A stretch of DNA of 42,490 nt from Chitinophagales bacterium (lineage in GTDB: Bacteria > Bacteroidota > Bacteroidia > Chitinophagales > UBA2359), in contig JAEUUX010000151.1 of the NCBI GenBank assembly GCA_016787295.1, positions 1 to 42,490 of the forward strand. Reading direction: 5' to 3'. The notes under the pieces are model-generated. The model worked only from the letters and a program-made list of their open reading frames with translations, searched no databases and had not been told where the DNA came from. Position 1 is the first letter of the stretch. Each line of letters begins with the position of its first letter. This document shows positions 3,295-33,859 of this stretch, piece by piece. Made by a program: the position numbers and the translations under genes.

Positions 3295-3797
3295 TAGAGG
3301 TGACGTTTGTTCCTAAGAAAATGTAAGTTTAATTTTGGTCAATAAAGATTAAGTACTTTGCAAGTGATAAAGCGGCTAACAATTGTAAAAAAACAGAAAG
3401 GTTTTAAAGATAGAAAGGTTTTAAAGACAAGAATAACTACGGTAGTGTTTTTTAGCAGCGAAATATAAAGGTGGAAAAAAGTGTGGTTTTATGGTATAAT
3501 AAAAAACGCCACAAAGGTACGATATTTTTTAAACATCACACTTTTGTGGCGAAAATATTCTGTATGTAAACTGATTGCTGGTTCGGTGTTGATGATAAGT
3601 GATATTTTTGAGCCGAATGAAAGGTAGTGGTATTAAAAGGTTTGGGGTGTATTTGTTCGAATGGCGAAGCGCGTTAGGGATTGTAAGGGTGGCGTTAGCC
3701 AGTGCGGAGAGCAACGCAGCACCATAGCGAAGCGAAGCCCTGTAAAGCCCGACCCGCAGGGAAACGCCCAAATATTATAAAGAAAGTTGGCTAATCG
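3295..3797. other. Intergenic region upstream of the adhesin gene
   Basis: No convincing gene is present. On the minus strand a TACCTTTG -7 box (3512-3519) could start a roughly 210-nt leader for the adhesin. It is overlapped by a 9-bp inverted repeat, cgccacaaa (3507-3515) and tttgtggcg (3543-3551). A 16-bp direct repeat (agaaaggttttaaaga, 3395-3410 and 3412-3427) lies nearby. The GC-rich block 3658-3769 is described separately. Confidence 0.55.
3658..3769 (-). repeat. GC-rich intergenic element, probable dispersed repeat
   Basis: Read on the minus strand, the block starts gggcgtttccctgcgggtcg and ends in ccctaacgcgcttcgcc. It contains several short G+C-rich self-complementary stretches and stands out from the AT-rich surroundings. 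From memory, closely similar sequences (gggcgtt-ccctgcgggtcgggct ... ccctaacgcg) recur between genes in many Bacteroidota. An 80-codon frame runs through it but has no protein character. Only one copy lies in this window, so dispersal is inference. Confidence 0.5.
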
Positions 3798-5180
3798 TTA
3801 AATTTTACCGCTAACTTTATTGCGTTTGATGAATTGTCCATAGCCTTTGTCTACTAAACAAGTGTCGTTGTCGATAACAACTTTGCCACGCAACAAAACG
3901 GTTTTGGTTTTGCCGGTTAGTTTCCAGCCTTCATAGGCAGAATAATCGACGTTCATATGGTGGGTGTCGGCGGAGATAGTGTGTTTTTGTTTGGGGTCGA
4001 AGATAACGATGTCGGCATCGGCACCAACAGAAATGCTACCTTTGCTCGGGAAAACGCCAAATAGTTTAGCGGGATTGGTGGCTATTATTTCTACAAATTT
4101 GTGCAACGAAATGCGTCCTTTATTAACGCCTTCGGAGAACAACAACTCGAAGCGATGTTCTATGGCAGGGTGTCCGTTGGGGATTTTTGAGAAATCATCT
4201 TTGCCCATCAATTTTTGTTCCCACTTGAAAGGACAATGGTCGGTGGCTACGACTTGTACTAAACCTTGGTTGATGCCTGCCCAAAGGGTTTCTTGGTCTT
4301 TCTTTTGGCGCAAAGGTGGACTCATGACCCATTTTGCTCCATCAAAATCTTTGTTGTAGAGGGAGGCATCGAGGGTGAGGTATTGTATGCAGGTTTCGAC
4401 AAAGACGTTTTGGTTGCGGCGGGTGGCATTTCGCACAGCGTTTAGCGCTCCTTCGCAAGTGAGGTGGACAATGTAGCCAGGCACACCCGTATAGTTTGCC
4501 ATATCAGCAAAACGCCCTGATGCTTCGGCTTCGGTCACTTCGGGTTGTGAAAGATAGTGGTAGAGGGGTGAGAGTTTGCCTTCGGCGCGGTGTTTGGCGA
4601 TTAGGTAGTCTATCATGTCACCGTTGGTAGCATGAACCGTTACCATACCACCGCAGCGTTTCACTTCTTCCATTAGGGCTACCATTTGGCGGTCGTCTAT
4701 CATGAGAGCGCCTTTGTATGCCATAAAAGTTTTAAAGGAGGTGATACCTTCTTCTTCTACCATTTTTTTGATTTCTTGTCTGGTATCGGGATTGAAGTCG
4801 GTGACAGCCATATGGAAAGAATAATCTCCCACAGCATTGCCATCGGAGCGCCCTTTCCATTGGTCTAAGGCGTGTTGCAAGGATTTGCCTTGTGTTTGCA
4901 AAATAAAGTCAATAACCATTGTGGTGCCACCAAACAAAGCGGCACGGGTGCCTGTTTCGTAGTTGTCGGACGAATAAGTTCCCATAAAAGGCATGTCTAA
5001 ATGGACATGTGGGTCTATACCTCCGGGCAATACCAATTTGTTTTTGGCATCGATAACTTGTTCGGCTTTGTGGGGAAGGTTCTGTCCAATTGCCACAATT
5101 TTTTCGCCTTGTATATAAACATCACCAATAAAGTCGCTGGAGCTGGTGATGATTCTGCCATTTTTGATTAAAATACTCAT
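3798..5180 (-). CDS. hydA: Dihydropyrimidinase / D-hydantoinase family amidohydrolase
   Basis: The 460-residue protein is a binuclear-metal cyclic amidohydrolase expected to open dihydrouracil or dihydrothymine (or hydantoin) rings in the cytosol. The metal and catalytic residues are all visible: H58 and H60 (DPHVHLD), the carboxylated lysine K150 and substrate tyrosine Y155 (SFKTFMAYKG), H182 (VHATNGD), H238 (VHLTCEG) and D313 (ATDHCPF). I chose MSILIKNGRI as the start because similar enzymes begin there; an in-frame ATG 14 codons upstream gives an unlikely extension. A TATATTTG -7 box lies at 5210-5217. No other reductive pyrimidine-degradation gene (PydA/B, beta-ureidopropionase) is adjacent, so the physiological substrate is open. 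Confidence 0.9.
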   Translation of the reverse strand: MSILIKNGRIITSSSDFIGDVYIQGEKIVAIGQNLPHKAEQVIDAKNKLVLPGGIDPHVHLDMPFMGTYSSDNYETGTRAALFGGTTMVIDFILQTQGKSLQHALDQWKGRSDGNAVGDYSFHMAVTDFNPDTRQEIKKMVEEEGITSFKTFMAYKGALMIDDRQMVALMEEVKRCGGMVTVHATNGDMIDYLIAKHRAEGKLSPLYHYLSQPEVTEAEASGRFADMANYTGVPGYIVHLTCEGALNAVRNATRRNQNVFVETCIQYLTLDASLYNKDFDGAKWVMSPPLRQKKDQETLWAGINQGLVQVVATDHCPFKWEQKLMGKDDFSKIPNGHPAIEHRFELLFSEGVNKGRISLHKFVEIIATNPAKLFGVFPSKGSISVGADADIVIFDPKQKHTISADTHHMNVDYSAYEGWKLTGKTKTVLLRGKVVIDNDTCLVDKGYGQFIKRNKVSGKI

Positions 5181-13521: not shown

Positions 13522-14832
13522 ATGCTAATACAGTTCAAAATAGCCAATTTTAAATGCTTCAAAGACGAAGCAATTTTGAGTATGCGTGCGGCTACACACC
13601 TTAAAAATGATGTAGGGCAACATAAGTTTAGCCCTATTGTCAACAAACCCGATTATCAATTATTGCCAAGTGTAGCTATCTATGGTGCCAATGCCAGCGG
13701 AAAATCGAGCATTGTTCAGGCATTATCCGTCATGCTCCAAATGGTTTTACATTCTGCCAATGAATCGAACAGTACTACCGAATTGCCATCGTTTGCACAT
13801 CGTTTACATACCATAAGCATACAAGAACCCACCTTGTTTGAAATCATTTTTTTGCACCATAACATTAAATATCGCTATGGTTTTGCCATACAAAAAAATC
13901 CAAATGCAATAGCGGAAGAGTGGTTATACACAAGCGATACTACCAAACAAAAGCAAAAAGAAGTGGAGATTTTCTATCGAAAAGAGCAAGATTTTGATGC
14001 CCACAGTTCGTTTAAAATTGGCAATACAATAAGCAAAATGGTGCGCCCAAACGCCCTATGGCTATCTGTAGCAGCACAACTCAACGACCCTATTGCTACC
14101 AATGTACAAATGTGGTCGAAAAAATGTCATACCCTTTCGGGAATGAGAACAGGATATAAACAATTTACCGCCGAAGAATCACAAAAAAATCCTATTTTCA
14201 AAAAACAAGTATTGGAACTGATGCAAGCCGCCGATTTAGGAATACTTGATTTTGAGGTAGCAGATATACCTGATGAGGAAATAGCGAATCTACCCAAAGT
14301 GATTAGAGACTTAGTGGCTGATAAAAAAGTCCAAATGGGCAAATCCATCAAAACACACCACCAAGTATACAACGAATACAATTTGCCTACTGATGTTGCT
14401 TTTTTTGATATGGAAACAGACGAATCCGACGGCACCATGAAATACTTTGCTTTGGCGGGACCGCTACTTGATGCTTTGCAGTCGGGAGATATATTGGTGG
14501 TTGATGAATTGGAAAGTCAACTGCACCCACTACTTACCCAAAAAATAATCGATTTGTTTAACAAACCCCAAAGCAATCCTAATGGGGCACAGTTGTTGTT
14601 TACTACGCACAATACCTACCTTTTGGAAAGTATGCCGCGCGACCAAATTTGGCTAACAGAAAAAGATAATTATGGAGCGGCTACACTTGTGGCGGTAAGC
14701 GATTACCAAGTGCGCGAAAACGAAAATGTGCAACGCAACTATCTTTTGGGCAAATATGGCGCTATTCCCTACCTACGCCCCTTTGAGACAATTACTACTT
14801 CACCCCAAAAACCACAACCTACCGATGTCTAA
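13522..14832 (+). CDS. AAA15-family ATPase of an RloAB/AbiL-type defence pair
   Basis: The 436-residue SMC/OLD-like ATPase starts with the family pattern MLIQFKIANFKCFKDEAILS and has Walker A GANASGKS (55-62). The Walker B/signature region is GDILVVDELESQLHPLL (about 325-342), followed by the switch LLFTTHNTYLLE. There are no membrane segments. Ligand-binding AAA15 proteins of this type pair with RloB-like or TOPRIM nucleases in abortive-infection systems (AbiL, the related PARIS). Its stop overlaps the start of the RloB-like gene by 8 nt, so the two are translationally coupled. Assignment to the family is firm; the trigger and target are unknown. Confidence 0.88.
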   Translation: MLIQFKIANFKCFKDEAILSMRAATHLKNDVGQHKFSPIVNKPDYQLLPSVAIYGANASGKSSIVQALSVMLQMVLHSANESNSTTELPSFAHRLHTISIQEPTLFEIIFLHHNIKYRYGFAIQKNPNAIAEEWLYTSDTTKQKQKEVEIFYRKEQDFDAHSSFKIGNTISKMVRPNALWLSVAAQLNDPIATNVQMWSKKCHTLSGMRTGYKQFTAEESQKNPIFKKQVLELMQAADLGILDFEVADIPDEEIANLPKVIRDLVADKKVQMGKSIKTHHQVYNEYNLPTDVAFFDMETDESDGTMKYFALAGPLLDALQSGDILVVDELESQLHPLLTQKIIDLFNKPQSNPNGAQLLFTTHNTYLLESMPRDQIWLTEKDNYGAATLVAVSDYQVRENENVQRNYLLGKYGAIPYLRPFETITTSPQKPQPTDV

Positions 14833-15598
14833 AGTCCCTCATCCCAACGATAAGAAACGCACGAAAGATTACCAAGAGCGACAGAAGCGCCAAAACGGAG
14901 GCGAATCGGATCGTGGTAATGCAACGCTTCCACAAAAGGAAAGTTTCTTAATTTTTTGTGTTGGCAAAAATACTGAACGCCAGTATTTTGAGCATTTTAA
15001 AACAGCTACTATAGAGGTTGCTTGCCCGCCTGATGCGGCAGGAAAAGATCCTTTGACAATGGTAGAAACTGTTCTCGAATGCCTGCCAGCATATCAAGCA
15101 AAACTTAAACTCGAGAAAGGTGAGGAATATCAACATATTTGGATAGTGTTTGACAAAGACAATTTCGAGGACTACAACTTTAACAATGCCATCAATAAAG
15201 CTACTGCTCATGGTATAAAAGTTGCTTGGTCGAATCAGGCTTTTGAGTATTGGTTTATATTGCACTTTATGGATCATCAAGGTGGCGGCATGCATCGAGA
15301 TGGGTATTATGACCTTATTAACCAACATATCGGAAAATATGGTGAAAAATATGACAAAGATTCAAAAAATGTAAGCCGCAAAATGTTCGATATTTTGGCA
15401 GCTATCAATCCCGATGACAATGTTAAGCCTAAGCGCACTTTCAGACAATTGGCATGGCAACGTGCAAAACGTATTTATGAGCATCACCAACAAGAAGGAA
15501 ATACGCCAGCTATGTCGGAGTCTTGTACCACTGTTTTTGAGTTGGTCGCATTGTTAGACCCTACCATAGCAAAAGATAATGCTGGAAAATGCAGTTAG
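14825..15598 (+). CDS. RloB-like (TOPRIM-type) protein, partner of the AAA15 ATPase
   Basis: The 257-residue protein starts at MSKVPHPNDKK, whose ATG overlaps the previous stop (ATGTCTAA). A longer frame upstream only repeats the other gene in another phase. RloB-type features are the basic N-terminus, FCVGKNTERQYFEHF with a conserved Glu, IWIVFDKDNF with acidic residues, and NQAFEYWFILHF. These resemble a TOPRIM-like metal-binding nuclease core. In known pairs the ATPase senses infection and this partner delivers the toxic cut, possibly on tRNA or DNA. That role is inferred here. Confidence 0.85.
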   Translation: MSKVPHPNDKKRTKDYQERQKRQNGGESDRGNATLPQKESFLIFCVGKNTERQYFEHFKTATIEVACPPDAAGKDPLTMVETVLECLPAYQAKLKLEKGEEYQHIWIVFDKDNFEDYNFNNAINKATAHGIKVAWSNQAFEYWFILHFMDHQGGGMHRDGYYDLINQHIGKYGEKYDKDSKNVSRKMFDILAAINPDDNVKPKRTFRQLAWQRAKRIYEHHQQEGNTPAMSESCTTVFELVALLDPTIAKDNAGKCS

Positions 15599-26025: not shown

Positions 26026-26568
26026 TTATTTGTTACTTCTATTTCTTGTTACTTCTATTTCGACTTCTTCAGATAAGGTTTTAGTTTTGATAAATTTAAT
26101 TAGCTTTTGTAAATCAATGAAAATATAATACAAAATGGGAGCACCTCCTAAACGAATAACACCATATTTTATCTTAGTTTCAGGGTACTTATTATTTTCA
26201 AATATAGTATTATAAGGATAACGACTTTCATCTGGGTTATAATTTGCTAACTCCTCATCAAAAGTTATTACATATTTAGGTTTAAATTCTACTTTTTTAC
26301 CCTGCTTACTTATTTCATTTATGATTTCTTTGTAAATGTAAGTTTTTACAAAATTTTCAGTTCTTACAAACTCTATTTCAGTCGTTAACTTATCAGGGTC
26401 TAATGCTGAAAAGTTATCTAAACCACCTTTGTTTGCAAAAAAACTTTCCAAAATAGGCAAGATAAACCTTTCGTTCACTGCTTTCCTTGTTTTAGGTTTC
26501 AGTGAAGCAATAGGGTTAAATTGACTTAATACGCTACTTGGCGAATTATGTTTAATTTGGTTTATCAT
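26026..26568 (-). CDS. Third gene of the McrBC-like operon, unknown function
   Basis: I do not recognise this 180-residue protein. It starts by a 4-nt ATGA overlap with the nuclease gene stop, so it is translationally coupled and very likely part of the system. Visible features: a polar N-terminus (MINQIKHNSPSSVLSQFNPI), a helical stretch KTRKAVNERFILPILESFF, a central LTTEIEFVRTENFVKTYIYKE, and a hydrophobic segment ILYYIFIDLQKLIKFI near the C-terminus. There is no signal peptide. The last residues have been changed by a 16-bp tandem duplication (26030-26061); without it the frame would continue to ...EIEVTNKVTESANGN. AT-rich like its two partners. Confidence 0.75.
   Translation of the reverse strand: MINQIKHNSPSSVLSQFNPIASLKPKTRKAVNERFILPILESFFANKGGLDNFSALDPDKLTTEIEFVRTENFVKTYIYKEIINEISKQGKKVEFKPKYVITFDEELANYNPDESRYPYNTIFENNKYPETKIKYGVIRLGGAPILYYIFIDLQKLIKFIKTKTLSEEVEIEVTRNRSNK
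26030..26061. repeat. 16-bp tandem duplication at the 3' end of the third gene
   Basis: ttgttacttctatttc occurs twice in a row (26030-26045 and 26046-26061). The length is not a multiple of three, so it shifts the frame of the overlapping gene and moves its stop. Confidence 0.9.
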
Positions 26569-28238
26569 AATGCGTTAGAAAGTTTAACGTAATTTTCTTG
26601 TAACGTTTTGAAGTTTATTTTTACGACTTTGATTTGGCTTTGCTTAAATTCGTTACTTGTAAAGTTTGTAATATCAAGCCTTGATGTTTCAAAGTCTAAG
26701 TTATCAGAATAATATGGTATCCAAAATTCACTCGTAGTTTCTGAATTTTCAAAGTTCTTTTGAACTGCCCATTCATAAATTAACTGCTTGTGAATGTCCT
26801 CTTTGATTTTATTTTCTTCTTTTTCGTCAATCGCATTAGAATTATATATTTGATAATCTGACTGACGCATATATTTGTAGTCAATGATTTTAATACTTTT
26901 AAGCCATTCGGAATGTAACCAAGTCTTAACTATTTTTTGAAATTGAATTAAATCATCCTCAAACATAAATTTGAATTTTCCGCCTGTAGTATAATTATCT
27001 TCTACTTGAACAAATTTTTGAAATAACTCAATAATATAAGGTTGTGTATTCCTCAAATCCTGGAAGTTTAATAACCCAACTCCATAAGCTACTTTTCCTT
27101 GTTTCAGATTAGGTAATTGCTTATGCTGAAACAAATCATCAATGTAGTTATAAATTTTATTTGATAACACCGAATCAGGCTTTAAAAATCTTGGTGCAAA
27201 ACCTCTGTTTATTTCCATTTTGAAGGGATTTACTGCTAATTCAGGTTGTAAACCTAAATCTTTGCGTGTTACTAATTCGCCTTTTACATCTGCAAATAAA
27301 ACTTGTGGTAAATATCCATTTTCGGGTTTTAGCATATAAGTTTGGCACATATCTTCCCAAATGTCATAAAAATTGTTGATGCCAAAATATACGCCTTTGT
27401 CATCTTCCAACCTTTCACCCATTAAAAAAGCCTCAATAGCATCATAGAAGTGCCAAAAGTCCTCGTCTTTATAGGTTGTTTTGCTATCAATTTCCTCAAA
27501 TACATTTTTGAGAATATTGATAGTGTCCGCAAAAGTATCTTCTGCAAATAAACTGCTATCAGGTTGCAAATAATTGTCCTTAAACAAGTCTGTCAATTCA
27601 AAAGCCTTATTTGGAACACTATCTAACTCCTCTAATTCTTTTTTTATTTCTGTATAAATAAAGCAAAAAAGTTGTATAATGGGTGGACTTTCTTTTATAA
27701 GAACACTTTTAGCAATGTTCATTTCATCAAGATAGATTACATCATCATCAAGATATATGGCTTGGTGCATATACCTATGAATTTTTGAGTAATCTATTTC
27801 GTGGGAACGAACTTGCTTTTTCTCCAAAGAAGAAATACGTAACTCGTCATAACCTTCTAAAATTTTGTCTAAGGCGTTGAGTTTTCCGTAAAATACAACT
27901 TGTTCGTTATTTTCATTGACAAAACTAAAACCGTTTTCAAACTCAAAAACGCCATCTCGGTCTTTGGTTTTCTCTTCTTCTGTGAGTTGGTTTAGTTTTC
28001 GTACCTTGTATGTTTGAAAAGTACGGTACATTTTGAAAAAGAAGTTTTTAACCCTATCAAAAGAAGTAGGGTTATTTTCATCTGTTTCAAAATCATCAAA
28101 ACCTAAAGGCAACCAAAATTCTGCCTCATATCCTTCTATAGCTGTTTTTTGCAACCCCACAAAAGAATAATTTTTGCCGTTTAGATTCTGTCTATCAGCA
28201 TCGGTTTTGATAAATTTTATTTTTTTGAGGTCAAACAT
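26565..28238 (-). CDS. McrC/LlaJI-like PD-(D/E)xK restriction nuclease subunit
   Basis: The 557-residue protein follows the McrB-like gene with a 1-nt TAATG overlap. The N-terminal half has no clear fold assignment. The middle contains FYDIWEDMCQTYML, a segment typical of McrC/LlaJI proteins. The catalytic core is a PD-(D/E)xK type, with Pro-Asp in PRFLKPDSVL (about residue 355) and Asp-x-Lys in IKIIDYKYM (about 453), equivalent to DAKY of McrC. It should cut DNA when driven by the McrB-like NTPase. No methyltransferase gene lies nearby, pointing to a modification-dependent (type IV) or phage-specific target. Confidence 0.8.
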   Translation of the reverse strand: MFDLKKIKFIKTDADRQNLNGKNYSFVGLQKTAIEGYEAEFWLPLGFDDFETDENNPTSFDRVKNFFFKMYRTFQTYKVRKLNQLTEEEKTKDRDGVFEFENGFSFVNENNEQVVFYGKLNALDKILEGYDELRISSLEKKQVRSHEIDYSKIHRYMHQAIYLDDDVIYLDEMNIAKSVLIKESPPIIQLFCFIYTEIKKELEELDSVPNKAFELTDLFKDNYLQPDSSLFAEDTFADTINILKNVFEEIDSKTTYKDEDFWHFYDAIEAFLMGERLEDDKGVYFGINNFYDIWEDMCQTYMLKPENGYLPQVLFADVKGELVTRKDLGLQPELAVNPFKMEINRGFAPRFLKPDSVLSNKIYNYIDDLFQHKQLPNLKQGKVAYGVGLLNFQDLRNTQPYIIELFQKFVQVEDNYTTGGKFKFMFEDDLIQFQKIVKTWLHSEWLKSIKIIDYKYMRQSDYQIYNSNAIDEKEENKIKEDIHKQLIYEWAVQKNFENSETTSEFWIPYYSDNLDFETSRLDITNFTSNEFKQSQIKVVKINFKTLQENYVKLSNAL

Positions 28239-29431
28239 TATCGGTTTAAAATTTTGTCTACGAAGTTTTGAACTTGTGCCTTTGCTGTAAATTGTCCGAA
28301 AGTAACTAACTCACTTTCACTAACTCCAAGCAACTCAACTAATGGCTTTTTATTATTACTAAAAACACTATCCCAAATGAAGAACATTAGTTTGTTTTTT
28401 ATTTCTACCTCTGTTATGGTTGGCTTGTTTATGAAACGATAGCCGATTTGTTTATCTTCAATTTTACGGATTTCCTTATGTTTACTTCTAATAAAAGTGT
28501 TTAATTTATCTACAAAATCACACCATTCGAGTTTATCTTGCCCGTAAAGTGAAATTTTGCAGTCTTTCAACTTTTCACGTTGTTTTTCATCTTCAATTTC
28601 TATAAACTCCCAATCCCACCTACGTTTGAAGGCACTATCCATAAAATAAATGGAATTATCGGAAGTGTTCATCGTGGCTACAATGGAAAGATTTGAAGGA
28701 ATTTTGATATAATTATCATTCATATCAAATCTATCCTTTCCTGAAAGGTCTGATATAATATAATCAAGATATTTTTTCCAGTCTTTTTCTTCTAGTACTA
28801 CCTTTGTAGAGGTAGGTGTTTCTTTGTATGAATATTCTGTTGAACCTGCTTCTAACTTCTTTGTCAAGCCTATCTCTTTCAAAAGTGTGGTAGCCTCTAA
28901 ATCAGAAAGTAAAACAGGATATTCAGACCATCCATTAGACTTTCTATCTAAAAGTTGAAAAACAGTACCAAAAATCGCAGCAGAATTTCCACGATTTATT
29001 TCGTCAATTACTAAAAGTACGTCTTGCGTATTTCTTGTAACAAGAGCATACCTTCTTTCTAATTCCTGTGTTTGGTCAGGTGAGAAATCATCTTGTTTTG
29101 TAATCCCTATTTCTCGTTTATATTCGGATAGCGTTTCTTTTTTGTCTTTGTCGTATTGAATTGCTGAGTTAATGAGGTTTTTATAAGCAATCCCCAGTGC
29201 CTTCAAAAAATGTCCTGCATAAAATTTATATGATACCTTCCCACTATCATCAGTAAGTGGCATAAGTTTACCCATAAAATCACCATAAGTATATTCAGGG
29301 TGAAACACTGTAGGAATGTAGTTTTTACTTGTTACTTCAACACCTAATTTGAATGCAATAACCTCTTTAATTTCGTGGCTTTTTCCTGTTCCAGGGCTAC
29401 CAAAAAGAATTTTTTGAATAGGTTTTGTCAT
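28238..29431 (-). CDS. McrB-like AAA+ NTPase subunit
   Basis: The 397-residue AAA+ protein has Walker A GSPGTGKS (11-18), Walker B with the McrB extension VLLVIDEINRGN (138-149), sensor/consensus loop ATMNTSDNS (252-260; compare MNTADRS in McrB) and arginine-finger region KRRWDW (269-274). It lacks the N-terminal DNA-recognition domain of E. coli McrB and starts almost at the P-loop. Target recognition must therefore come from another subunit, perhaps the N-terminal half of the nuclease or the third gene. It lies 147 bp after the UpxY-like gene on the same strand. Confidence 0.9.
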   Translation of the reverse strand: MTKPIQKILFGSPGTGKSHEIKEVIAFKLGVEVTSKNYIPTVFHPEYTYGDFMGKLMPLTDDSGKVSYKFYAGHFLKALGIAYKNLINSAIQYDKDKKETLSEYKREIGITKQDDFSPDQTQELERRYALVTRNTQDVLLVIDEINRGNSAAIFGTVFQLLDRKSNGWSEYPVLLSDLEATTLLKEIGLTKKLEAGSTEYSYKETPTSTKVVLEEKDWKKYLDYIISDLSGKDRFDMNDNYIKIPSNLSIVATMNTSDNSIYFMDSAFKRRWDWEFIEIEDEKQREKLKDCKISLYGQDKLEWCDFVDKLNTFIRSKHKEIRKIEDKQIGYRFINKPTITEVEIKNKLMFFIWDSVFSNNKKPLVELLGVSESELVTFGQFTAKAQVQNFVDKILNR

Positions 29432-29578: not shown

Positions 29579-30115
29579 TTAAGGAGCTTTTCGCACAATG
29601 TTTTCATCTACGATTACGGTTGCAAAATACCCGAGTCCTTTAATTTCGACTCTAAGGCGATGTTGTCCATCTTGTTGGATAAGGTGTCCGCGAAAACCTT
29701 GTAAGGGTCCCGCCATAACTTCTACTTCGTCTCCGAGTGCGAATGGCGAAGGAGGCGAAGGTGGCATTTTTTCTATGACCACAGCTTCGGGACAAGCACA
29801 AAGGCGTTGTATACGGTCGACTTCCTCTTGGCTCAAAATGCAAATATGGTCGCCCATCGTCACGTATTTCAGAACGCCGCCCGCCAAATACACCTCTTTG
29901 CGCAGGTTGTCAAACGTTTTGACAAAAACGTAGGATTTGAAAAGTGGCACTTCTACCCATTTTTTGCGGTCGTGCCAAACCCGCAATTCGCGTTGCAGCG
30001 GTAGGTAGTTTTCTATGCCTATTTTTGATAAACGCTTGCTTGTTTGTTTTTCTGCATTGGGTTTTGTTACCAACACATACCATTTTTGTTGGGATTCTGC
30101 TATCTTGCTTTGCAT
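29579..30115 (-). CDS. NusG paralogue, UpxY/RfaH-type specialised antiterminator
   Basis: The 178-residue protein has a NGN domain (QQKWYVLVTKPNAEKQTSKR, then VWHDRKKWVEVPLFKSYVFV, residues about 11-110) and a C-terminal KOW domain (ALGDEVEVMAGPLQGFRGHL, about 124-165). UpxY proteins usually head capsule polysaccharide operons in Bacteroidota and let RNA polymerase read through their own operon. Here the next genes on the strand are the McrBC-like trio, not glycan genes. A -7 box lies at 30162-30169. Family assignment is firm; control of the McrBC-like genes is inference from order. Confidence 0.88.
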   Translation of the reverse strand: MQSKIAESQQKWYVLVTKPNAEKQTSKRLSKIGIENYLPLQRELRVWHDRKKWVEVPLFKSYVFVKTFDNLRKEVYLAGGVLKYVTMGDHICILSQEEVDRIQRLCACPEAVVIEKMPPSPPSPFALGDEVEVMAGPLQGFRGHLIQQDGQHRLRVEIKGLGYFATVIVDENIVRKAP

Positions 30116-30497: not shown

Positions 30498-31466
30498 TTA
30501 TAGGAGTTTATCTCTTTCAATGGCATTTACTAAACCCAGAACAGCATCTCTAATTTGATTTCGTTCTATAATTGCTTGGTGTCTGTCTATTATTCCTTGC
30601 CTTATATCTTGCTCAAGGTTTGATAACCTTCCTTGTTGCATTATAACTTCGTTTTTATGTCTGTCAGAAGTAATTTCTTTTAGCTGCAAAAGTGCATCAT
30701 TTAGGTAGTCATTAGCTATAAGTATTTTCATTCTTTCAAAATTTGGGGTTATATAGGCGTTTTTAAAGATCAAAAAATGAATTGCATTTCTAACATAGGC
30801 AAGAAATGATTTTATTTGTTTGAAATAACCTGTTCCAAAAGTTGCTAAAAAAGAAAAAAGAAAAATAGGGAGATTTCTTGTTATTATATTTTTTAACCGC
30901 CTAACGATAGATACTAACCAATTTTCTTCCGGATTTATATATAGCTCAACCTCTTTCATTATCCCGCTATCAATTTTATTGTTACAATTATCATCACTAA
31001 AAAAACTCCACTTTGCCATCAATATACACCTTCCTTCTTCTATGGGTGTTATTTGCCACAAGTAGTTATTAGGAGGGGCTGCTACTATTGCCTCTTGATT
31101 CTTAGTATCAATAAAACCAATAGTGTCTATATAGATCGGTTCACTAGTCAATAATTCAGGTCTTATAGCACTTAGTTTCCCACCAGAAAACCAAGTGCTA
31201 TCATTACCACCATTAAACGTTAGCTCTAAGGTGAAGGGAACACCTACTGTAAGAGTGTCGACTTCGTTTTTAACTGTGGTCGTTGTTTTTAAATTCCACT
31301 TAGTCAAAGATTGTAGTCTGTCGGTATATAATTTTATTCTTCCTTCTTCACCGCTTTGTGATCCGGTGGGTGTCTTAGGTTCCAAATAGTTAGTGTATCG
31401 CTCAAATTGAAACAACCCCAAAGCAGTTAAAAGTATCCATAGAATAAAGCAAATAAAAAATTTCAT
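30498..31466 (-). CDS. Two-TM protein with periplasmic domain and cytosolic EAD11-like tail
   Basis: The 322-residue protein has TM1 at 3-20 (FFICFILWILLTALGLF) and an extracytoplasmic beta-rich domain of about 170 residues (KNEVDTLTVGVPFTLELTF). TM2 is at about 199-215 (LPIFLFSFLATFGTGYF), followed by a cytosolic tail. Residues 247-316 (LIANDYLNDALLQLKEIT, then QGRLSNLEQDIRQGIIDRHQ, then ERNQIRDAVLGLVN) follow the helical pattern I know as effector-associated domain 11, an adaptor domain of Bacteroidota conflict systems. The start overlaps the protease stop by 4 nt (ATGA). I suggest an envelope sensor or anchor linked to the protease. The EAD call is by eye, moderate certainty. Confidence 0.75.
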   Translation of the reverse strand: MKFFICFILWILLTALGLFQFERYTNYLEPKTPTGSQSGEEGRIKLYTDRLQSLTKWNLKTTTTVKNEVDTLTVGVPFTLELTFNGGNDSTWFSGGKLSAIRPELLTSEPIYIDTIGFIDTKNQEAIVAAPPNNYLWQITPIEEGRCILMAKWSFFSDDNCNNKIDSGIMKEVELYINPEENWLVSIVRRLKNIITRNLPIFLFSFLATFGTGYFKQIKSFLAYVRNAIHFLIFKNAYITPNFERMKILIANDYLNDALLQLKEITSDRHKNEVIMQQGRLSNLEQDIRQGIIDRHQAIIERNQIRDAVLGLVNAIERDKLL

Positions 31467-32848
31467 TGTAGTATTTTTATGTTTAGAGCATTAAATATTT
31501 GGTAAATCGGTGTTGCTACAGTATAACTATTACTAGCCCCTTCTATTGTACCTGCTATGACCATACCTACTACTATCCTTGAATCTTGTTTAAGCACTAT
31601 GCTTCCAGAGTCGCCCTTTTTGCTAAAAGTAATGCTATTATGTCCTTTTATTCGTAATTGATATTTAAAGGAATATGAAATTGTTAAACCGTTAGGTAGT
31701 GTGTGTGTATGTTTAAATGTAAGACTATCCTCTAATATCTTACCAGTAGTCTTACCTGATGCAGCACCATTTTTAGATACAGTACCACCTTGCAGTTTAT
31801 CGGAGTTTCTTACAATATTGTATGGTGATGATGTGTCTATATCAATATCACTATTCTTATCAAATTTGACTATTCCACAGTCTAAGTAATACCAATTTCG
31901 CCAATTCCACCATATAAACCCAAAATACCCCTTGGATTCTGCCCCAATAGTAATATTAGGAATTAATTGTATTTTATTATTGTCACAAAAAAGGTTGACA
32001 CTCAACACCCCCCTTCCTGCCTGATCAATTAAATCTTGGTCTTTGAATAACACATGTGCAGCGGTAAGCCAATAAGAATTCTGATCGTCATCTTTAACGT
32101 ACAAACCCATAGTACCTGTTTGGTTCGGTTCGATTACAGCTTTTATTTTTTTCTCGGAAATAGCGTCGACAGGAGGAAACTGCAAATAAAAATCCGCCTC
32201 TTCAAATTCTACAGGTATTCCTGCCATCTCACGAGGTATTTCGTATAAAGAAGTAGTGTCAGAAATTCGGGAAGAGTAAAATACTAAGATACTCTCTATA
32301 GTATTTTTTGAGACATATTTAACCCCAACACCTGATACATAAGGATTTTTCATTATAAAATCCTCTTCTTTATCCTTTACAAAAAGAACGTATTCGCGAT
32401 TCCCTTTCCCTCTTATAAACTCGCCGCCAGTCCAATAGGAGATTTCCAATAACCATTCAGGCTCTCCATTTTTATCAATTTGGTAAATTACATTATAAGT
32501 ATTTGCTTTTCCTTTAGGTTTTTTGAAATACGCTTTAAACTCAAGTTCTTCACCGGTTGCGTTATTTTTAATTAATGCTTCTACATTAGCAACAAACTCG
32601 GAATTTGTCCCCATACTAAATATCGTTTTTTCTATATGTACCAAAGGCGAAATCAATTCTTGTTCATGCAATAACAGAGGTGCCTCTAAATATTTGTCCG
32701 CTATCTTCATAGAAAACGTAAAACTGTTATTACTTTTTACGGCTGCTATATCATCTATAGAAGAAGTAGAGCCACTATTGGTTGTTACATTATTTGCATA
32801 AACTCTGATGTAAACAGGCGTATTGCCAAGAAGTTTTATCTCGTTCAT
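31463..32848 (-). CDS. Cytosolic trypsin-fold serine protease of the two-gene cassette
   Basis: The 461-residue protein has no signal peptide or membrane segment. The C-terminal half (from about 235) is a chymotrypsin/trypsin-fold peptidase with an intact triad: His265 (WLTAAHVLF), Asp323 (YLDCGIVKFD) and Ser414 (KKGDSGSIVL). The N-terminal ~230 residues form an unrecognised, probably beta-rich domain (VYIRVYANNV; EFKAYFKKPK). Trypsin-like peptidases without export signals are a known effector class in EAD-containing conflict systems, which fits its coupled partner. The promoter and a perfect inverted repeat lie about 190 bp upstream. The target protein is unknown. Confidence 0.82.
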   Translation of the reverse strand: MNEIKLLGNTPVYIRVYANNVTTNSGSTSSIDDIAAVKSNNSFTFSMKIADKYLEAPLLLHEQELISPLVHIEKTIFSMGTNSEFVANVEALIKNNATGEELEFKAYFKKPKGKANTYNVIYQIDKNGEPEWLLEISYWTGGEFIRGKGNREYVLFVKDKEEDFIMKNPYVSGVGVKYVSKNTIESILVFYSSRISDTTSLYEIPREMAGIPVEFEEADFYLQFPPVDAISEKKIKAVIEPNQTGTMGLYVKDDDQNSYWLTAAHVLFKDQDLIDQAGRGVLSVNLFCDNNKIQLIPNITIGAESKGYFGFIWWNWRNWYYLDCGIVKFDKNSDIDIDTSSPYNIVRNSDKLQGGTVSKNGAASGKTTGKILEDSLTFKHTHTLPNGLTISYSFKYQLRIKGHNSITFSKKGDSGSIVLKQDSRIVVGMVIAGTIEGASNSYTVATPIYQIFNALNIKILQ

Positions 32849-33231: not shown

Positions 33232-33714
33232 TTATGGCTGAGGTCTATAAAAACGCAATTTACCGCGTTTTACATCTGCCAAACGCAAATCGCTCAAGCC
33301 TACTTTTCTACCCGAAAATTCGGTGTTTTGGTGTGCTAAAACATATTCGCCTTTGGCTTTCACCTCATAGACAATGGCGGTGTGTTGTGTCATGGTTTCG
33401 GTATGGATAACTTGCCCTTTGTTGTATTCCACCTTCACGTTTTCGAACTGTACAATGTCGCCCGGCAGAATGGCTTCTTTTTGTGGGTCAATGGCTTTGC
33501 CAAAACGTAAACGATGATCCCATTGTGCCTCGTTTTCTTCCAAAGCATATTTGGCTAAATCCCAACACTCGCCGCGCCCAACTTTTTTGTCTATTTTAGT
33601 GGTAACGTAGGCAATAATTTTTTGGTTCATTTCGGGTAGTTTTTGCTCTTGCGCCCACAGGCTACACGACCATAACAATACACCGAAAAGGCTTAATAAT
33701 AAGCAGTTTTTCAT
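33232..33714 (-). CDS. Secreted CHAP/NlpC-P60-like cysteine hydrolase
   Basis: The 160-residue protein starts at MKNCLLLSLFGVLLW with a signal peptide to about residue 21 (SLWAQ); a 40-codon extension upstream is rejected because it lacks export features. Papain-like residues are Cys50 in GRGECWDLAKYAL, His111 in TQHTAIVYEV, and possibly Asn130 in YVLAHQN, with the fold-typical PGDIVQFEN between them. It may cut peptidoglycan peptides or another amide in the periplasm. Its terminator is repeat copy B. Before the cassette insertion it was probably the direct upstream neighbour of upxY. Confidence 0.72.
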   Translation of the reverse strand: MKNCLLLSLFGVLLWSCSLWAQEQKLPEMNQKIIAYVTTKIDKKVGRGECWDLAKYALEENEAQWDHRLRFGKAIDPQKEAILPGDIVQFENVKVEYNKGQVIHTETMTQHTAIVYEVKAKGEYVLAHQNTEFSGRKVGLSDLRLADVKRGKLRFYRPQP

Positions 33715-33859
33715 GGTGATAGGGTAGTTTAATAATAAGAATGAATGATACAAAGCTCCCAAAATTTTTGAACATAACTGCCTGATAATCAAGCTATTAG
33801 CCAATTTTCTGAAAGTTTTTGTACGTATTATCATAGGTTAATAAAAATGTTGTGAACAG

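Follow-up and report, generated by a model that had tools for sequence, protein, structure and literature searches.

A McrBC-like operon with a hypervariable block in its predicted nuclease and a conserved third gene in a Chitinophagales bacterium

The window, by which we mean the whole stretch of DNA analysed here, comprises 42,490 nt of contig JAEUUX010000151.1 (GCA_016787295.1) from a Chitinophagales bacterium. It carries the three-gene McrBC-like operon that a first-pass annotation had proposed from the letters of the sequence, in which three open reading frames, here called B, C and X, all lie on the minus strand in the order B-C-X. The B/C junction reads TAATG, a 1-base overlap, and the gene after the nuclease does follow, as the annotation had claimed, by a 4-base ATGA overlap, a C/X gap of -4 that recurs at many other loci. 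As the B-C-X order was found at 30 further distinct loci, the operon is more than a chance arrangement. Its genes and features are as follows:

28238-29431, minus strand: B, predicted McrB-type AAA+ motor, 397 aa (Pfam AAA_5, 3e-6; PADLOC REase_II, 3e-34; solved McrB 6ut3, 3e-18)
29378-29401, minus strand: B Walker A, GSPGTGKS, residues 11-18, invariant in both B alignments (A3, A10) except at one position
29027-29161, minus strand: B residues 91-135, first hypervariable segment, N-terminal to Walker B (mean pairwise identity 11-16%, against 81-86% in neighbouring motifs)
29000-29017, minus strand: B Walker B, LLVIDE, residues 139-144 (D143 and E144 invariant)
28712-28891, minus strand: B residues 181-240, second hypervariable segment, after Walker B and ahead of sensor 1 (mean pairwise identity 18-27%; close pairs also dip)
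28658-28669, minus strand: B NTSD, the McrB NxxD GTPase signature (PMC11090510), residues 255-258, invariant
26565-28238, minus strand: C, predicted McrC/LlaJI-type PD-(D/E)xK nuclease subunit, 557 aa (hhalign to LlaJI R2; C-X fusion model against YdjA and McrC)
27351-27359, minus strand: C WED, residues 294-296, invariant in 24 sequences; E295 is the likely motif I
27174-27182, minus strand: C KPD, residues 353-355, motif II ([KR]PD recurs in Bacteroidota-type rows)
26889-27158, minus strand: C residues 361-450, the hypervariable block separating motif II from motif III and a candidate module for recognising the target or trigger
26874-26882, minus strand: C DYK, residues 453-455, motif III (D453 and K455 invariant in 24 sequences)
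26565-26568, minus strand: ATGA, overlap of the C stop and X start
26026-26568, minus strand: X, third protein, putative conserved accessory subunit, 180 aa (found at all 31 distinct loci, six of them with a C-X fusion)

We identify B as a predicted McrB-type AAA+ NTPase, its best relatives among solved structures being McrB GTPase subunits. Because Walker A already lies at residue 11, B is without the N-terminal DNA-reading domain, in agreement with the first-pass annotation. Over twelve relatives B has the two hypervariable segments listed above. A census of McrBC systems (PMC11090510) noted that the GTPase domain can carry insertions, which it took for likely specificity domains.

C is likewise recognisable, by its motifs and remote relatives, as a McrC/LlaJI-type nuclease. 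The KPD...DYK PD-(D/E)xK site read from it earlier is present and is joined by E295, which sits in WEDMC. Searches with C gave no Pfam match (McrC and DUF2357 included), no PADLOC match, nothing near a curated NCBIfam cut-off and, against solved structures by sequence, no credible match. Its hhalign alignment to LlaJI R2 (E 1e-4) runs up to and through the VWED motif, and the pattern E...D...DxK...KQ is common to the two proteins. We modelled a natural C-X fusion from locus L020 (mean pLDDT 68.7), whose top match was YdjA from the YdjA-YdiS model of B. subtilis BsuMI (Foldseek 1.4e-6, Z 11.6), followed by the McrC proteins of E. coli and Thermococcus at Z about 6; the McrC alignments also cover the N-terminal half, and a Pfam DUF2357 match is absent.

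The most variable part of C lies within the nuclease fold itself, where the block between motifs II and III averages 8-17% identity over twelve relatives. Compared with its counterpart at locus L006, the window C is mostly 80-100% identical through residue 300, falls to 5-15% over residues 361-440 between flanks of 75-100%, and returns to 75-94% in most bins after the block. The same feature takes a sharper form in a sister clade that lacks X (described below), whose C contains an exchangeable block of about 180 residues: L068 and L069 share 82-85% DNA identity on either side of the block and have no alignable DNA across 543 bases, and in comparisons of L068 with L069, L072 and L067 the flanks are 80-85% identical at the DNA level around 511-550 unalignable bases that begin at the same base each time. 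Fourfold sites flanking the block are 83-94% identical in the pairs L068-L069 and L067-L068, and 83-88% identical in L068-L069. Between the near-identical loci L024 and L025, 9 changes fall among 141 block residues, against 4 among 390 residues elsewhere (p 0.001). Module exchange with sharp edges is a pattern known from target recognition domains. The alignments indicate that the block of C has been swapped as a sharp-edged cassette among close relatives in the X-less clade, where the sharp edges were seen; in the window's clade the block is unalignable and the flanks are too diverged for edges to be traced in DNA. The part most likely to recognise an invader would be this exchangeable block inside the nuclease, rather than X.

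X is, as first noted, a 180-residue protein of unrecognised family, with no match in Pfam or PADLOC, nothing near an NCBIfam cut-off and no credible match to solved structures by sequence. The structure prediction of X alone that the first-pass annotation had called for was made (mean pLDDT 72.6, from 22 sequences), and the model matched no known fold among solved or viral structures, a result that does not in itself prove a new fold. A STING-like fold was considered and rejected as not credible (Foldseek E 0.28, probability 0.06, Z 2.5 at an rmsd of 7.1). The window X is 78% identical to that of L006 and 20-28% identical to most cyanobacterial X, a distance over which B retains about 50%. Its pI is 9.2, within a range of 4.8 to 9.4 across relatives. 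Residues 106-135 form a variable stretch (17-23% identity), and divergence in close pairs is fairly even along X, with no variable block like that of a target recognition domain (TRD). Most X of the Bacteroidota type carry some 180 further residues, made up of a coiled coil and a beta domain with the conserved pattern WNTTDDLDLH...PQEN...GKH. This C-terminal extension was located at L007 (11614-12705), L008 (7681-8799), L009 (11604-12641) and L014 (12232-12672), in the last case in another frame, and it is absent from the window copy, L010, L076 and the cyanobacterial type. We found no remnant of it downstream of X in the window and no supported Pfam family for it, DUF2135 being reached by one member only, at 0.15.

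The genome-neighbourhood search suggested by the first-pass annotation was run with X and with C as queries, and X was constant beside C. With X as the tblastn query against plasmids we recovered loci in Hymenobacter, Nostoc and Geminocystis, each in B-C-X order. With C as the query, chosen to avoid bias from X, about 85,000 genomes gave 21 loci. In these two sets X lies next to or is fused with C at 24 of 24 loci, and at the most distant of them, L026, it was confirmed by a profile built without that locus (4e-8). A search of 339 cyanobacterial genomes added six more distinct loci with full-length C, and X was present at all six; contigs judged by their length or handle to repeat L003, L009, L015, L017 and L024 were left out. 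Taken together, X comes immediately after C or forms the C-terminal part of a C-X fusion at 31 of 31 distinct loci, the window included, drawn from Bacteroidota, cyanobacteria and two proteobacterial contigs; some come from metagenome bins that may be misnamed (L020, labelled 'Rickettsiales', and L025, labelled 'Flavobacterium', look cyanobacterial). This conservation rules out X as a chance ORF. An X profile run against the same 339 cyanobacterial genomes returned 11 strong matches, all at the 11 C loci, and three further matches at E 0.005-0.008 that are apparently due to chance; a putative X homologue in genome G052 (L005) fell within a RecQ-like frame and was likewise set aside as chance. 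The system is rare in Bacteroidota, the window's own genome being alone among 395 sampled, and neither X in viral contigs nor C in viral contigs or phage records was found. B at L078 is in two parts, ORFs at 764-1090 and 3597-4193 that lie far apart, with C and X intact behind them, as an insertion would leave it; at L016 the C frame stops early.

The linkage of X with C is close enough that the two are at times one chain, as in the six fusions (L015, L020, L022, L023, L080 and L081). The X tree pairs the window with L006 (95/92), and a tree of the N-terminal half of C also groups them, whereas in the B tree a 98/98 branch separates the two and 0% of bootstraps pair them. From this conflict, a single case, we infer that C and X remained a unit through a replacement of B, which accords with the fusions. 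By sequence, X belongs to the C lineage.

The first-pass annotation had asked whether the third gene is absent next to close homologues of the other two. It is not, X being found with C as the query at all 31 loci; the loci without it form a more distant sister clade. This clade consists of twelve cyanobacterial loci (L062-L073). Their C is longer, at 603-695 aa in the intact copies, B precedes it at nearly all of them, and X was not found even at full sensitivity (best E 0.47). In the B tree the loci with X separate from those without it (branch support 83/52 and 92/96), so that a single gain or loss of X suffices to explain the distribution. If the reading favoured below is right, X would be a defined subunit family, for whose role the X-less sister clade would serve as a natural control, although the two clades differ in more than X.

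Comparison with described systems places the operon near, but not within, several of them. LlaI and BsuMI, both McrBC-like, combine a short motor with three ORFs for restriction (PMC1459862). The earlier suggestion of a third subunit not described for type IV systems needs qualifying in view of these two; of the X family itself, a literature search of partial coverage found no description. BsuMI (YdiR, YdiS and YdjA) resembles our operon in its short McrB-like motor (343 aa), LlaJI-type nuclease and third restriction ORF (PMC1459862), and YdjA is the protein best matched by the C-X model, but BsuMI is part of a restriction-modification (R-M) system with methyltransferases (PMC2614495). LlaJI likewise pairs a McrB-like R1 with a PD-(D/E)xK R2; it differs in the DNA-binding N-terminal half of R1, in its two methyltransferases and in having two restriction genes only. 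Type IV McrBC shares with the operon an AAA+ GTPase motor with Walker A, Walker B and NxxD motifs and a McrC-type PD-(D/E)xK partner, without a methyltransferase, but the specificity domain at the McrB N-terminus is absent from B, C has no Pfam McrC or DUF2357 match, and X is extra. CoCoNuTs, too, are multi-gene relatives of McrBC (PMC11090510), whose GTPases have NxD and coiled-coil fusions, whereas B has NTSD (NxxD), 397 aa and no added domain. The Lactococcus LlaI system, seen here as the L102 cassette next to AbiA, likewise has a short motor (LlaIB, 337 aa), related to B, a LlaJI-family nuclease that is a weak relative of C (1e-4), and further restriction ORFs; it differs in being associated with DNA methylases. 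X resembles neither the 252-aa protein encoded ahead of LlaIB nor the 413-aa HExxH protein encoded behind the nuclease gene (hhalign E 0.6 and 0.75). The latter, encoded at 7483-8724 of L102 with AbiA next, has a zinc-protease-like motif and is presumably ImmA/IrrE-like. The comparison of X with further restriction proteins covered the LlaI cassette, none of whose proteins resembles it.

Other conflict-type genes share the window. A trypsin-like protease (31463-32848, minus strand) overlaps by 4 bases a membrane-anchored protein that carries the effector-associated domain EAD11 (30498-31466, minus strand; E 6e-17), and this pair (30498-32848, minus strand), about 1 kb upstream of B, is a candidate second conflict system. 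Between the pair and B lies an UpxY-type antiterminator (29579-30115). The gene at 33232-33834 (minus strand) encodes a protein that looks secreted and matches a cysteine peptidase fold of the CHAP/AIM3 type (PF25459, 3e-20), and at 13522-15598 (plus strand) an RloA-like AAA_21 ATPase overlaps an RloB protein (E 2e-40 and 1e-42), a candidate defence pair.

We favour, with a little less than even confidence, the reading that the operon encodes a stand-alone three-subunit defence nuclease of a type IV-like or LlaJI-like kind, in which the trigger is read by C (and B) and X is an obligate partner of the nuclease. Hexamers of B, presumably with GTP as in McrB, would move DNA or drive the complex, and C would dock on B and cut. 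The trigger, which may be a modified base, a sequence or a phage structure, would be read by the exchangeable block that separates PD from DxK in C, helped by the hypervariable segments of B. X, as the constant partner at the C-terminal side of C, may assemble or position the nuclease complex, for example by dimerisation or stabilisation, a role that its fusions and its linkage to C suggest.

The first-pass annotation had instead offered specificity, sensing or inhibition as roles for X. Rather unlikely, in our judgement, is that X takes the place of the absent McrB N-terminal domain as a subunit for specificity or sensing, which would bind a modified base or phage trigger and pass it on to B and C. 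Such a role would fit a motor without a reader domain, the constant presence of X beside this C family, its greater divergence than B over long distances and the basic window copy. Yet charge is not constant among relatives, close pairs diverge evenly along X while C and B have blocks at 5-27% identity, and the X-less sister clade keeps its hypervariable nuclease block. We regard as improbable that the operon encodes an ordinary type II R-M enzyme of the LlaJI or BsuMI kind whose methyltransferases have been lost or whose host is protected by distant ones. B and C do resemble LlaJI R1 and R2, C resembles BsuMI YdjA, and the genome holds two C5 methyltransferases elsewhere; against this, neither the window C nor the rest of the genome has a Pfam RE_LlaJI match over cut-off, and, as the annotation had noted, there is no methyltransferase among the window ORFs scanned, nor one as operon partner at other loci in a rough motif scan (not a family search); one DPPY protein lies about 0.5 kb from the X-less locus L065. 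More doubtful still is X as an inhibitor or safety lock released upon infection, which would suit a small, translationally coupled gene beside a nuclease but which the six natural C-X fusions make less likely and without which the sister clade manages.

Alongside the favoured three-subunit nuclease, we consider it possible, and hold more loosely, that these systems form a separate McrBC-like branch in which recognition has moved from the N-terminus of the motor to an exchangeable module nested in the nuclease fold, with motor loops helping, while a dedicated nuclease partner with a fold not seen before was acquired or retained by one lineage. If true, this would raise the question of how so variable an enzyme spares its host, and McrBC-type machines would have a third means of carrying specificity, in a swappable nuclease block and without a methyltransferase.
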